IMG/VR virus record: IMGVR_UViG_3300035070_001788
Coordinates: 1-21,228 of that record
DNA from: a virus
Reading direction: 5' to 3' (one strand)
Length of the DNA: 21,228 nucleotides
Shown: positions 3,878-21,146 of the stretch, one piece after another
Numbering within the stretch: the stretch's first letter is position 1
Layout: every line of letters starts with the position of its first letter
Translations under genes and position numbers: made by a program
The notes under the pieces: generated by a model
Database searches by the model: none
What the model was told of the DNA's origin: nothing
What the model saw: only the letters and a program-made list of their open reading frames with translations

Positions 3878-4534
3878 TTACGCGTCGTATCCCCACATTT
3901 CAATGAGTAATCTTCCTGCTGAGTAGTTTCCATCAGTAGCTGCACCAGTTACTAAATATAAATATTTATCTGCTGCTGGCACTGCACCTGCTGTAAAGTA
4001 ATCAATTGAAGCGGCAGTTAAGTCACCGTTATTCATTAATTGTGTTTGGTTTGTTAAAGCTGTAATTGCTGCATCTTCTGTACCAGTTGCTTCATCCGCG
4101 TACCAAAAATCGATATCTGGATCACCACCTGCTGGAGTTTCATAAACAGACCATTGACCTGTTAAGATAGTTCCATTGTTAGCTGCAGTAATTTGTCCAA
4201 CATGTGAATTAGCAGTTGCTGCTTTTCCAATAATATCACCAGAACCTGAACTAGCTAAACCAGTTAAGTCTATTAAAATTGAAGTAGAATAAATTCCACC
4301 AACTTTAACTGCTGCACCTGCATAAACTGTACCTGTACCAGTTGTAATACCTGTACCTGCTGACATTGTATTTCCATCAAGATCAGTAATACCGGTTACT
4401 ACTAAAGTTCCACCAATCGAAGCGTTAGTTGCGTAAGTAGAGTTATCAGTGATAGCTCCTGTTGCCGCTGTTTTTGTAATAGATTTGAATCCGTTTTCTG
4501 AACGAACCGCACCTGTAAACGTTGTATTTGCCAT
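3878..4534 (-). CDS. Beta-rich structural protein, Gly/Thr/Ala-rich
   Basis: A 218-residue protein beginning MANTTFTGAVRSENGFKSIT. It continues with low-complexity Thr/Gly/Ala segments (around GTGITTGTGTVYAGAAVKVG) and ends in the hydrophobic stretch GRLLIEMWGYDA. The N-terminal pattern (ANTTFTGAVRSENGF) recurs, as I recall, in pelagic phage virion proteins encoded next to the capsid gene. There are no cysteines. It has a strong TAGGAGG ribosome site and the most elaborate leader structure in the late block (4558-4601), suggesting high or separately controlled expression. A head fibre, decoration protein or tail component is possible; I cannot choose between them. Confidence 0.75.
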   Translation of the reverse strand: MANTTFTGAVRSENGFKSITKTAATGAITDNSTYATNASIGGTLVVTGITDLDGNTMSAGTGITTGTGTVYAGAAVKVGGIYSTSILIDLTGLASSGSGDIIGKAATANSHVGQITAANNGTILTGQWSVYETPAGGDPDIDFWYADEATGTEDAAITALTNQTQLMNNGDLTAASIDYFTAGAVPAADKYLYLVTGAATDGNYSAGRLLIEMWGYDA

Positions 4535-18930: not shown

Positions 18931-19644
18931 ATGAAATATAAATATAAATTACAAAAAAAACTTTTAGGGTCTTCAACCTATAAAATGGAGAAGTCACAAA
19001 AATATAAATATTTAAGTGAAATATTACACTTAGCCCCGTCAAATATTGGTGGCGTTAATATATGCGCTAGCGCTAGCCCTGAGTGTATAAAATTATGTTT
19101 AAATACAAGCGGGCGGGGTCAAATGACAAGCGTTCAAAAATCAAGATTAAATAAGAAATACTATTTTTTAGCGGACAGACTGAAATTTTTAAATCATTTA
19201 GACCGTGAAATTAAATTAAGTTATGCACGGGCTAAGCGTAAAGGTTTTAAATATACTGTTAGATTAAACGGGACGTCCGATCTTCCATTTGAGAGATACA
19301 AGCTAGATAACGGCTTAAATCTTATGGAAAATAACCCTAACGTACAATTTATAGACTATACAAAAATTACAAATAGATTATTGCAAAAACTACCTAAAAA
19401 TTACAGTTTAACATATTCTCAAGCGGAAAATAATTTAAAAGATGTTAAGCAAGTATTAAAAACAAAATACAATATTGCGACTGTATTTAGAAAAAAACTA
19501 CCTAAAAAATGGTTAGGGCGTAAAGTTATAAACGGGGATTTATCGGATTTAAGACACTTAGAGGACGGCAAAAAAATAATTGTAGGTTTAATTGCTAAAG
19601 GTAAAGCAATTAAAAATTTTAATGGATTTGTGCAAGATGTTTAA
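18931..19644 (+). CDS. Gene-product-88-like protein
   Basis: A 237-residue protein that I match from memory to the gp88 family first named in mycobacteriophages and present in many phages. Landmarks in order: LHLAPSNIGGVNICASASPE with Cys 45 and 52, CIKLC with Cys 56; a basic helix (VQKSRLNKKYYFLADRLKFL, 68-87); TVRLNGTSDLPFERY (109-123); FIDYTKITNR (140-149); LTYSQAENN (160-168). The three cysteines plus the YTK strand are typical of the family. Its biochemical function is not known to me; a metal or cluster site near the cysteines is possible. It partners with the zinc-ribbon gene with zero spacing. Confidence 0.75.
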   Translation: MKYKYKLQKKLLGSSTYKMEKSQKYKYLSEILHLAPSNIGGVNICASASPECIKLCLNTSGRGQMTSVQKSRLNKKYYFLADRLKFLNHLDREIKLSYARAKRKGFKYTVRLNGTSDLPFERYKLDNGLNLMENNPNVQFIDYTKITNRLLQKLPKNYSLTYSQAENNLKDVKQVLKTKYNIATVFRKKLPKKWLGRKVINGDLSDLRHLEDGKKIIVGLIAKGKAIKNFNGFVQDV

Positions 19645-19699
19645 TTTTGTGCGGATAGGTAAGTTCGGATTTCAAACCTTAAAATGAATTCTAGGTTTT

Positions 19700-19745
19700 G
19701 TTAGTTTTTTCCTCACCAAAACTAACGCCGTTAAAAAAAACTAAC
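19700..19745 (+). promoter_or_regulatory. Alternative hairpins in the leader of the small-gene cassette run
   Basis: GTTAGTTTTTT (19700-19710) can pair with AAAACTAAC at 19718-19726 (9 bp, 9-base loop) or with AAAAAACTAAC at 19735-19745 (11 bp, longer loop). The two pairings exclude each other, as in attenuators. The T-run in the first arm does not follow a GC-rich stem, so it is not a plain terminator. It lies in the 141-base gap between the gene-88-like gene and the first cassette. Confidence 0.45.
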
Positions 19746-19766
19746 AAGCGACAAGCTCAAGCGACA

Positions 19767-19788
19767 AGCGAGCAGAAGGGATAATATG
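19767..19788 (+). repeat. Cassette linker repeat, copy 1
   Basis: The repeat unit begins AGCGAGCAGAAGGGATAATA and ends with the ATG of the first cassette gene. The 22 bases are identical in all four copies. Here the sequence is not the end of a full gene: in the frame that reads ...SEQKG-stop the upstream codons (QAQAT...) have no start, so this may be a relic or a leader. AGAAGGG is the ribosome site. Confidence 0.85.
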
Positions 19789-20052
19789 AAAAAAGTTAAG
19801 GCAGAAAAATATAAAAATTTCACAATAGAAATATATGAACAGCAAGCGAGTATTGAATACCCGCTCAACGAAGATTGGGAAAATTTAGACCCCGAACATT
19901 TAGGAACACACGCTTATAAAATATTTGATGAAAAAAAAGAATTAGTTTACGAAGATAAAACTAGTATGTGGGATATTGGGGCGTGTTTAGATAATGCGCA
20001 ACAAGATATAAACTGCGGTGCAGTACAACAAGCAAGCGAGCAGAAGGGATAA
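19786..20052 (+). CDS. Cassette gene A, unknown, ends QQASEQKG
   Basis: An 88-residue acidic protein. Residues 1-20 (MKKVKAEKYKNFTIEIYEQQ) are followed by YPLNEDWENLDPEHLGTHAY (about 25-44), KIFDEKKELVYEDKTSMWDI and a C-terminal AVQQASEQKG. A beta-alpha-beta shape is suggested. The last eight residues, QQASEQKG, are encoded by the linker repeat and are shared with the next two genes. Codon and charge use agree with the neighbours. There is no known motif; the body is distinct from the other cassette genes, so the shared tail does not indicate a common fold. Confidence 0.75.
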   Translation: MKKVKAEKYKNFTIEIYEQQASIEYPLNEDWENLDPEHLGTHAYKIFDEKKELVYEDKTSMWDIGACLDNAQQDINCGAVQQASEQKG

Positions 20053-20056
20053 TATG
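20026..20056 (+). repeat. Cassette linker repeat, copy 2 (31-bp version)
   Basis: The 31-base unit starts CAACAAGCAAGCGAGCAGAA and differs from copies 3 and 4 at a single base. It supplies the C-terminal codons and stop of gene A and the ribosome site and ATG of gene B. Confidence 0.85.
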
Positions 20057-20218
20057 GCAAAATATAAAATTACTTTTACAGATGAATTTGAATGTTTAAA
20101 TGAAGAACATAGTTATGAAACATTATTAAATTATTTAAAAGAATGTGTACAAAACGAAGATGTGACTGCATTTGAATTTGAAGAAGTAAAACAACAAGCG
20201 AGCGAGCAGAAGGGATAA
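20054..20218 (+). CDS. Cassette gene B, unknown, ends QQASEQKG
   Basis: A 54-residue acidic protein starting MAKYKITFTDEFECLNEEHS, then YETLLNYLKECVQNEDVTAF, and ending EEVKQQASEQKG. I chose the ATG at 20054, one base after the stop of gene A (TAATATG), because the linker's AGAAGGG lies 6 bases upstream; an ATG 36 bases earlier lies inside gene A without such a site. The strand-helix-strand pattern resembles very small phage modulators, but no family is recognised. Confidence 0.7.
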   Translation: MAKYKITFTDEFECLNEEHSYETLLNYLKECVQNEDVTAFEFEEVKQQASEQKG

Positions 20219-20222
20219 TATG
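20192..20222 (+). repeat. Cassette linker repeat, copy 3 (31-bp version)
   Basis: Identical over 31 bases to copy 4. It ends gene B and starts gene C. Confidence 0.85.
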
Positions 20223-20390
20223 ATAAACCCAAATAAAAAATTAAAAGATATGACAAAAAAATTAGATGATATTTTAGATTGGTTAGTTGATAGCCCAATG
20301 GATAATAAAGACTATAACGATATACATAAAATTTTTAATAAATATTTAGAAATAGAAGAAAATCAACAAGCGAGCGAGCAGAAGGGATAA
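20220..20390 (+). CDS. Cassette gene C, unknown, ends QQASEQKG
   Basis: A 56-codon frame: MINPNKKLKDMTKKLDDILD, then WLVDSPMDNKDYNDIHKIFN and KYLEIEENQQASEQKG. It is mainly helical and charged. It starts one base after the stop of gene B and its own stop is one base before the next ATG. It is real by context: it has the same linker, frame logic and spacing as its neighbours. Function unknown. Confidence 0.7.
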   Translation: MINPNKKLKDMTKKLDDILDWLVDSPMDNKDYNDIHKIFNKYLEIEENQQASEQKG

Positions 20391-20394
20391 TATG
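20364..20394 (+). repeat. Cassette linker repeat, copy 4 (31-bp version)
   Basis: Identical over 31 bases to copy 3. It closes gene C and supplies the ribosome site and ATG of gene D, which itself lacks the tail. Confidence 0.85.
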
Positions 20395-20547
20395 AATATA
20401 ACACAATTAGAAAAAGAAATAATAAAGGTATTAAAAATTAATGAAAATGTAGATTGGGATTTTTCAGATATACCACCAAAAGAAGAGTTTAAAGAATTAC
20501 AAATATTTATTAAACGATTGTTTAAAGAATATAGGGGGCAGGAATGA
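20392..20547 (+). CDS. Cassette gene D, unknown, no shared tail
   Basis: A 51-codon frame: MNITQLEKEIIKVLKINENV, then DWDFSDIPPKEEFKELQIFI and KRLFKEYRGQE. It is a charged helical protein. It uses the linker repeat for initiation but ends differently, with its TGA overlapping the next ATG (ATGA). It therefore marks the right end of the cassette run. Not recognised. Confidence 0.65.
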   Translation: MNITQLEKEIIKVLKINENVDWDFSDIPPKEEFKELQIFIKRLFKEYRGQE

Positions 20548-20786
20548 CACAACGAGATGAAGGACACGACTATCGAGACAGTAAGAATAAGGCGCAGGCG
20601 TATGAGCGCAAGCAAAAAATAGAAGATATCATTGAGGACATAAGAGAATTAAGAGATGCAGACTTCCACGTTTGTAAACATAGCGAGTGGCAAGCTAAAG
20701 GCGAACCCGAAACAGATGAAGATATCACTTGTACTTGTGGTGAGTTTGATTCTGTTATTGACAAGTTAGAAGAGTTAAAAGTTTAA
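20544..20786 (+). CDS. Small protein with a Cys/His cluster, unknown
   Basis: An 80-residue protein. The charged helical N-terminus (QAYERKQKIEDIIEDIRELR, about 18-37) precedes a possible metal site: HVCKH with Cys 44 and His 46 and CTCG with Cys 63 and Cys 65. It ends in the helix DSVIDKLEELKV. The spacing C-x-H ... C-x-C is unusual for a classic zinc finger but could bind one metal. GGGGGCAGG precedes the ATG, and its ATG overlaps the stop of gene D. Its 3' end overlaps the convergent nuclease gene by 12 bases. Function unknown. Confidence 0.7.
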   Translation: MTQRDEGHDYRDSKNKAQAYERKQKIEDIIEDIRELRDADFHVCKHSEWQAKGEPETDEDITCTCGEFDSVIDKLEELKV

Positions 20787-21146
20787 CTTCTCTAAACATG
20801 ACAAACAATCTTCAATATTTTGAGCTATGGGTGTAGCCTTTAAACCACAAACGACAAGCTCGTCCACTTGTTTACCAAGATACAAGCACAAGCGTTTTTT
20901 CTTAACATCTTTAACCAATATAAATGTGTTAACGGGGTGGCGTATATGAAAACTAATTTGATGAGGGGACAAGCGAATCTTATTACCAGACTTAACAACC
21001 TTAAGTTCTACTGTAAAGAAAGCATTATTAGTATTATAGCCGAGCAGGTCTGGAGTTCCAAAGGCACAGGCGTTCTCAATTCTTGTCCATTTAATAGTAG
21101 GTGTATTCTTTTTTACATACTGCCAAAAATTACTTTCGTCTTTCAC
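20775..21146 (-). CDS. VRR-NUC-like PD-(D/E)XK nuclease
   Basis: A 123-residue protein, a normal length for a stand-alone VRR-NUC domain. Catalytic pattern: Glu 24 in RIEN, GTPDLLG with Asp 33, FTVELKV with Glu 47 and Lys 49, and LSPHQ with Gln 63. This is the E...G-x-P-D...E-x-K...Q order of the family, which acts on structured DNA in phage recombination or replication. The start is a GTG at 21146; no in-frame ATG is available. It overlaps the end of the convergent 80-aa gene by 12 bases and the preceding minus-strand gene by 17 bases. It may resolve junctions before packaging, but this is inference from the fold. Confidence 0.8.
   Translation of the reverse strand: MKDESNFWQYVKKNTPTIKWTRIENACAFGTPDLLGYNTNNAFFTVELKVVKSGNKIRLSPHQISFHIRHPVNTFILVKDVKKKRLCLYLGKQVDELVVCGLKATPIAQNIEDCLSCLEKLNF

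Follow-up and report, generated by a model that had tools for sequence, protein, structure and literature searches.

Exchange at short boundary sequences between genes is an established idea for the lambdoid phages (PMC3233612), and an old question in phage mosaicism is whether mosaic joints at gene borders arise through homologous exchange at such boundaries or through illegitimate recombination followed by selection (PMC3233612). In T4, small early genes are shuffled by promoter-early stem-loop (PeSL) elements (Arbiol 2010, Comeau 2014; cited in PMC4503421), and in cluster K mycobacteriophages the 13 bp SAS (GGGATAGGAGCCC) is spread over many genes (PMC3203893). Integrons are arrays of single-gene cassettes at one locus, with a conserved joining site and varied content. 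In the text of a large pelagiphage genome paper (PMC9599517) the words 'hypervariable', 'intergenic' and 'cassette' are absent.

The locus described here lies in a stretch of viral DNA of 21,228 nucleotides (the whole stretch analysed, hereafter the window), in which a short linker, partly coding, recurs at the borders of tiny genes of unlike sequence. The most probable reading is that the linker serves as a recombination handle for swapping tiny genes at one fixed locus.

A repeated, partly translated linker at one locus

The exact 22-mer AGCGAGCAGAAGGGATAATATG starts at positions 19767, 20035, 20201 and 20373 on the plus strand of the window, with no copy on the opposite strand and none elsewhere in the window at up to three mismatches; under a first-order Markov model, chance alone would give about 2e-10 such copies. 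Measured against the 31-mer CAACAAGCGAGCGAGCAGAAGGGATAATATG, copy 1 has five mismatches, copy 2 has one, and copies 3 and 4 have none. The 31 bp comprise the last codons of the preceding gene (CAACAAGCGAGCGAGCAGAAGGGA), the stop TAA, a ribosome site (AAGGG) and the start codon of the gene that follows, and a single base separates the TAA inside the linker from the following ATG in the case of genes A, B and C (Table 1). With a minimum free energy of 0 kcal/mol the linker is predicted to stay unfolded, and it contains neither a hairpin nor an inverted repeat. The sequence-only reading of the window had claimed four 22-bp copies, three of them extending to 31 bp with at most one mismatch, a QQASEQKG tail common to genes A, B and C, and unlike bodies of genes A to D, all of which held, with the bodies belonging to four different families. 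Its further claim, that every copy provides C-terminal codons and a stop together with the ribosome site and start of the following gene, held for three of the four copies only, because copy 1 stands behind an untranslated leader instead of a gene end and gives ribosome site and start alone.

Table 1. Features of the array and its flanks in the window.
Feature	Position	Strand	Description
Left anchor, GP88-like gene (237 aa)	18931..19644	+	Pfam PF17338, E 2.7e-35
Leader, GP88 gene to first linker	19645..19757	+	Sequence; hairpin and recurrent stretch
Linker copy 1	19758..19788	+	Core 22-mer 19767-19788; 5' half untranslated; gene A receives AAGGG and its ATG
Cassette gene A (88 aa, family F20)	19786..20052	+	ORF; tail VQQASEQKG
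Linker copy 2, A/B seam	20026..20056	+	31-mer with 1 mismatch
Cassette gene B (54 aa, single-member family F79)	20054..20218	+	ORF from linker ATG; tail KQQASEQKG
Linker copy 3, B/C seam	20192..20222	+	Equals 31-mer
Cassette gene C (56 aa, family F48)	20220..20390	+	ORF; tail NQQASEQKG
Linker copy 4, C/D seam	20364..20394	+	Equals 31-mer
Gene D (51 aa, family F47)	20392..20547	+	ORF from fourth copy; terminal cassette without tail
Gene E (80 aa)	20544..20786	+	N-terminal module MTQRDEGHDYRDSKNKAQAYERK (about 20544-20612) and variable body; right border of array
Gene F (123 aa), right flank	20775..21146	-	Helicase- or nuclease-like phage protein

Gene A has no match in Pfam or PHROG, and its predicted fold (pLDDT 82) has no significant structural match in the PDB or BFVD. 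In the program-made ORF list gene B begins at an upstream GTG instead of the linker ATG. The stop of gene D overlaps the ATG of gene E (ATGA), with AGGGGGCAGG just before, and gene F matches phrog_2165, named DNA helicase (E 7e-12), and phrog_5702, Holliday junction resolvase (E 0.02). The same genes recur elsewhere in other company: family F20 of gene A is also found in L016, L033 and L090 beside other neighbours (in L090 a different gene comes next, and the L016 copy has the C-terminus DIKQESEK), gene C is flanked by F5 and F0 in L084 versus B and D in the window, and a protein like that of gene D is also present in L020, L074 and L103.

The exact 22-mer was found in 105 IMG/VR contigs from 84 metagenomes and not at all in the bacterial and archaeal genomes of GTDB, while none of 50,697 phage records had a match covering 80% of the 31-mer. 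All linker-bearing sequences are metagenomic contigs. The terminase is 75-77% identical to those of HTVC027P and 023Pt_psg01 and 62% identical to that of HTVC023P, and the phage is therefore considered pelagiphage-like; a Pelagibacter (SAR11) host is inferred from these relatives only. The HTVC023P/HTVC027P-type pelagiphages (PMC9599517), although the closest cultured relatives by terminase, differ in that the linker is missing from them as from every other cultured phage record, and in the four nearest relatives no member of a cassette family was found.

With respect to its position, the linker locus is fixed, with the GP88-like gene on one side (before the array in most loci long enough to show that side) and a variable gene block on the other. 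Eleven long contigs of 26-51 kb carry the linker at the array locus alone and, within each contig, on a single strand. Allowing up to five mismatches, 260 linker copies were counted in 134 non-redundant loci, versus none with a reversed control. As most loci were gathered through the linker itself, counts of perfect copies are biased upward; among 36 loci collected independently of the linker, through the GP88 neighbour gene, 32 contain it, and the remaining four carry a shorter or different relative of the linker, e.g. CAAGCGAGGANNAAATG, joining similar genes.

Shuffling of cassettes and breakpoints in the linkers

The genes that start at linkers fall into about 80 families with a median length of 65 aa, and 97 distinct arrays were recorded, each with one to seven linkers separating one to seven tiny genes. 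Across these arrays there are 84 direct joins of gene pairs through the linker, which represent 81 different ordered combinations, while the reading frame, and likewise the spacing, is identical at all 107 direct joins of the full set. Phages that are otherwise close differ at this locus, as among the 87 phage pairs whose GP88 genes are at least 92% identical in DNA, 69 do not have the same array (a few of the 69 differ since a contig ends early). Conversely, phages with only about 46-60% identity between their GP88 proteins can share cassettes at a DNA identity of 95-98%; 15 pairs combine cassettes at least 95% identical with GP88 below 65% identity, a count made after two apparent high-identity cassette pairs, spurious alignments of only four bases, had been discarded. 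In L012 and L018 about 550 nt, comprising two cassettes with the linkers that belong to them and the beginning of the gene behind, are shared with nearly 100% identity, and this block begins inside a linker with unrelated sequence upstream. Within the L012/L018 comparison the few mismatches are confined to the first 75 nt of gene E, followed by 100% identity, a pattern which possibly reflects a second exchange point in the start of gene E.

Twelve multi-cassette arrays were seen again in separate assemblies, eleven of them without any difference over the length compared and one at 98.5% identity. The sequence-only reading had predicted that relatives would show the same linker flanking different ORFs, and had named a fixed gene order or misassembly as what would refute it. 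The prediction is strongly borne out by the 97 arrays, the 81 distinct pairs in 84 joins, the clustering of breakpoints in linkers (below) and the clean L012/L018 exchange with its edge in a linker, and both refutations failed, the former on the 69 of 87 close pairs that differ and the latter on the 12 recurring arrays.

Ends of shared blocks map to linkers at 37/kb versus 2.0/kb between linkers (approximately 18-fold), with block starts at the 5' edge of the linker and block ends at the 3' edge. With one locus used per array, 285 breakpoints fall in linkers compared to 72±9 in shifted controls (500 controls, maximum 95). Alleles at positions -12 to -9 track the upstream gene and alleles at +18 to +21 the downstream gene, whereas alleles within the linker track neither neighbouring gene, as is expected if crossovers fall within the linker. 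Gene starts without a known linker show block ends as well (23.5/kb), which indicates that selection for intact gene boundaries contributes too.

Cassette genes encode small proteins, most of them acidic (median pI 4.9, 58% below 5), in which known domains are almost absent. Searches of 79 family representatives against Pfam, PHROGs and PADLOC gave few, weak and single matches without a theme, a tblastn search with families F1 and F3 against the 50,697 phage records gave nothing, and the structure predicted by a model for family F0 reached a pTM of 0.50.

Constraint on the linker, further seams and the leader

The 3' half of the linker is a ribosome site at the right spacing, and its 5' half exceeds the needs of a ribosome site. 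Codons that are rare in these genes are kept (CAG 6%, AAG 9%, GCG 17%), untranslated first copies are as conserved as translated ones, and variants in tail codons 2-8 comprise 29 non-synonymous versus 17 synonymous changes, such that amino-acid changes are not avoided. Together these observations point to a constraint on DNA or RNA. Of the two options raised for the shared tail at the outset, a side effect or a localisation or degradation tag, the conservation at the nucleotide level and of the untranslated copies favours the first, and the QQASEQKG tail is probably, by inference, a by-product of the linker.

The linker is not the sole seam. An unbiased 14-mer count recovered a second one, GATGAAGAGGGGGACGAGTGA (also recorded as AGGGGGACGARTGA), which encodes a DEEGDE tail with overlapping stop and start, and at which breakpoints amount to 53/kb. 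This second seam, in the form GAAGAGGGGGACGARTGA (tail EEGDE, the start overlapping the stop), was found in 29 IMG/VR stretches, some of them outside these arrays. On the start side, the module MTQRDEGHDYRDSKNKAxAYER of gene E (MTQRDEGHDYRDSKNKAQAYERK) is joined in relatives, always in frame, to a large number of bodies that do not resemble each other; in L005, for example, the body behind it is that of cassette F18, with 91% identity over 54 aa. The linker, the DEEGDE seam and the MTQRDEGH module therefore provide shared seams at gene ends, junctions and starts.

A number of side observations concern these seams. Copies of GAAGAGGGGGACGARTGA are located at L033:2810-2827, L041:1347-1364, L142:1471-1488 and L032:4915-4932, among others. 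The MTQRDEGH module is present at 20544-20612 of the window and in L005, L043, L045, L097, L025 and L012, where the body is F14-like in L043 and F6-like, with a short MTQRDD start, in L097. Shorter relatives of the linker, e.g. ACAAGCGAGGANNAAATG, join similar cassettes in some lineages (L121, L139, L141, L151, L182, L189). In L095 a copy of F5 (near 4363, minus strand) reads through as ...KLKKQASEQKEQYEKTNRNN, which is linker-like without the stop and might represent either the origin or the decay of a seam.

The leader of the window contains a hairpin (GTTAGTTTT...AAAACTAAC, about 19699-19725) and a recurrent AACTAACAAGCG / CAAGCTCAAGCG stretch. Leaders of relatives mostly contain a stable stem-loop, unrelated in sequence, directly ahead of TTTAAAACTAACAAGCG, with z<-2 in 66% of 64 distinct leaders; for the window's own leader z is -0.1. 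The motif CAAGCG occurs in leaders at 10.7/kb on the sense strand versus 0.17 on the antisense strand, and an Rfam search of nine loci gave no match. Different leader hairpins recur in different phages, resembling an exchangeable regulatory head.

Proposed mechanism, rival explanations and known systems

In the proposed mechanism the unit of exchange would be a gene body from one linker to the next. As the linker hardly varies, either between its positions or between phages of the group, homologous recombination could occur at any linker, whether between co-infecting phages or between two copies in the same array, and a crossover anywhere in it would insert, delete or swap whole genes with frame, stop, ribosome site and start always restored. 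The handle function proposed from sequence alone is strongly supported. Homologous annealing at the linkers during co-infection is the likely mechanism and the one with the best support, but homologous recombination itself stays inferred, as does its form, an annealing-type exchange during replication; no recombinase is yet tied to this locus and no recombination experiment is available. Single-strand annealing would need an exonuclease. A phrog_298 exonuclease is encoded in all 11 genomes examined; RecT and ERF were not found in searches of related genomes, and a sequence search of the PDB with a conserved 240-aa protein of the replication region gave nothing. Against annealing at linkers stands that some 20-30 bp of near-identity are short for many recombinases. 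In the search for endonuclease VII the control matched nowhere, so that its negative carries no weight; a PHROG comparison gave an endonuclease VII match in one contig. As a separate observation, an endonuclease VII-like gene adjoins the phrog_298 exonuclease in G001 (L161:17007-17582) and at L034:120-569; the two may conceivably form a recombination/packaging pair. What keeps the array variable is inferred to be diversifying selection, perhaps via host defences.

The rival explanation that survives best, although it is unlikely, considers the linker merely a strong conserved translation element, a ribosome site with coupled stop and start, with illegitimate recombination occurring anywhere and survivors retaining intact gene boundaries, so that breakpoints would seem to lie at linkers. 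In its favour, the 3' half makes a good, correctly spaced ribosome site, blocks break also at gene starts without a linker (23.5/kb), and comparable start-associated repeats of cluster K mycobacteriophages are tied to translation initiation sites (PMC3203893). On the other hand, some 15 nt ahead of the ribosome site, in the coding part of the upstream gene, are conserved as well, with rare codons kept, no other gene in the window or the long contigs uses the sequence, and one frame and one spacing at 107 of 107 direct joins would not be expected of illegitimate joins.

It is considerably less probable that selection acts on the QQASEQKG tail itself, as a tag for localisation, interaction or degradation, and that the identity of the DNA is merely a consequence. 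The tail is indeed common to many otherwise unlike proteins and always in the same frame, but its codons tolerate amino-acid change (29 versus 17, as above), untranslated first copies are conserved equally, the same families can carry other tails (EEGDE or EYEKS in F4, QESEK in F20, QQARNYEKYISAI in F23), and terminal families lack it altogether.

Equally hard to sustain is a site-specific recombinase acting on the linker in an integron-like cassette system. A short conserved site, cassette arrays, one orientation and one locus would fit, but a tyrosine recombinase (PF00589) was found in none of 11 genomes (eight related long contigs, which are possibly incomplete, and three cultured relatives), with positive controls detected in 14 of 14; serine recombinases were outside the search. 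The linker is moreover unlike attC in having no inverted repeat and no folding, and the absence of a hairpin is evidence against an integron-like site. An assembly artefact, in which repeated linkers would have joined unrelated genes in metagenomes, can be all but excluded: even though every sequence is metagenomic, the 12 multi-cassette arrays recur across assemblies (11 identical, one 98.5%), a 31-bp repeat is short relative to usual reads, and the junctions hold a single reading frame.

With the recombination handle retained as the preferred reading, a bolder one, towards which the evidence leans by a narrow margin, is an integrase-free cassette platform in lytic phages, where a global phage population would build arrays from a common stock of tiny genes, at least about 80 in number, by means of a self-perpetuating, locus-specific seam uniting stop, ribosome site, start and homology for recombination, with extra seams exchanging protein starts (MTQRDEGH) and ends. 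Tiny unknown proteins with fast turnover in widespread marine phages are candidate counter-defence or host-takeover factors; such a role is a reasonable guess and has not been shown. The array yields a catalogue of such proteins, for which the linker is a handy marker, and with a single seam repeated hundreds of times, some 80 genes that can replace one another and close relatives that differ solely in array content, the locus constitutes a natural test of mosaicism.

Compared with known systems, the locus resembles the lambdoid boundary sequences, which as short conserved sequences at gene borders act as exchange points in mosaic genomes, and two marks of such exchange, a shared border sequence with differing genes and mosaic breakpoints at the conserved sequence, are present, the third, exchange by homologous recombination, being inferred. 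In contrast to the lambdoid phages, the same linker recurs here at one gene border after another within an array, and does so in diverged phages too; its 5' half is translated, stop, ribosome site and start are combined in the one element, and the gene families interchangeable at this single spot number about 80. The T4 PeSLs are alike as repeated elements in the shuffling of small genes, and a variable stem-loop also heads this array, but a PeSL combines promoter and stem-loop/terminator, whereas the partly coding linker has no room for either. Neither PeSL mark is met, as there is no excess of promoters over shuffled sequences in the array (with a stop-start gap of 1 nt) and the linker is unfolded, the stem-loop being found solely in the leader. 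The SAS/ESAS repeats share the conserved sequence directly before the starts of unlike families, mostly in one orientation (PMC3203893); the dispersed GGGATAGGAGCCC is not matched, the linker being a different sequence at a single locus, and coding of the upstream gene end or a role as exchange point is not described in the relevant sections of that paper (PMC3203893). The integron differs in that no integrase and no attC-like hairpin were found here, and in that the linker is coding and bears a ribosome site. The initial statement that no described system of this form is known met no counterexample in the literature searched (subscription papers and preprints were mostly outside), and none of the lambdoid, PeSL and SAS systems, in the sections examined, unites stop, ribosome site, start and coding tail at a single array. 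Cumulatively, while the form of an array with translated linkers appears to be undescribed, its principle resembles that of the lambdoid boundary sequences and the T4 PeSLs.
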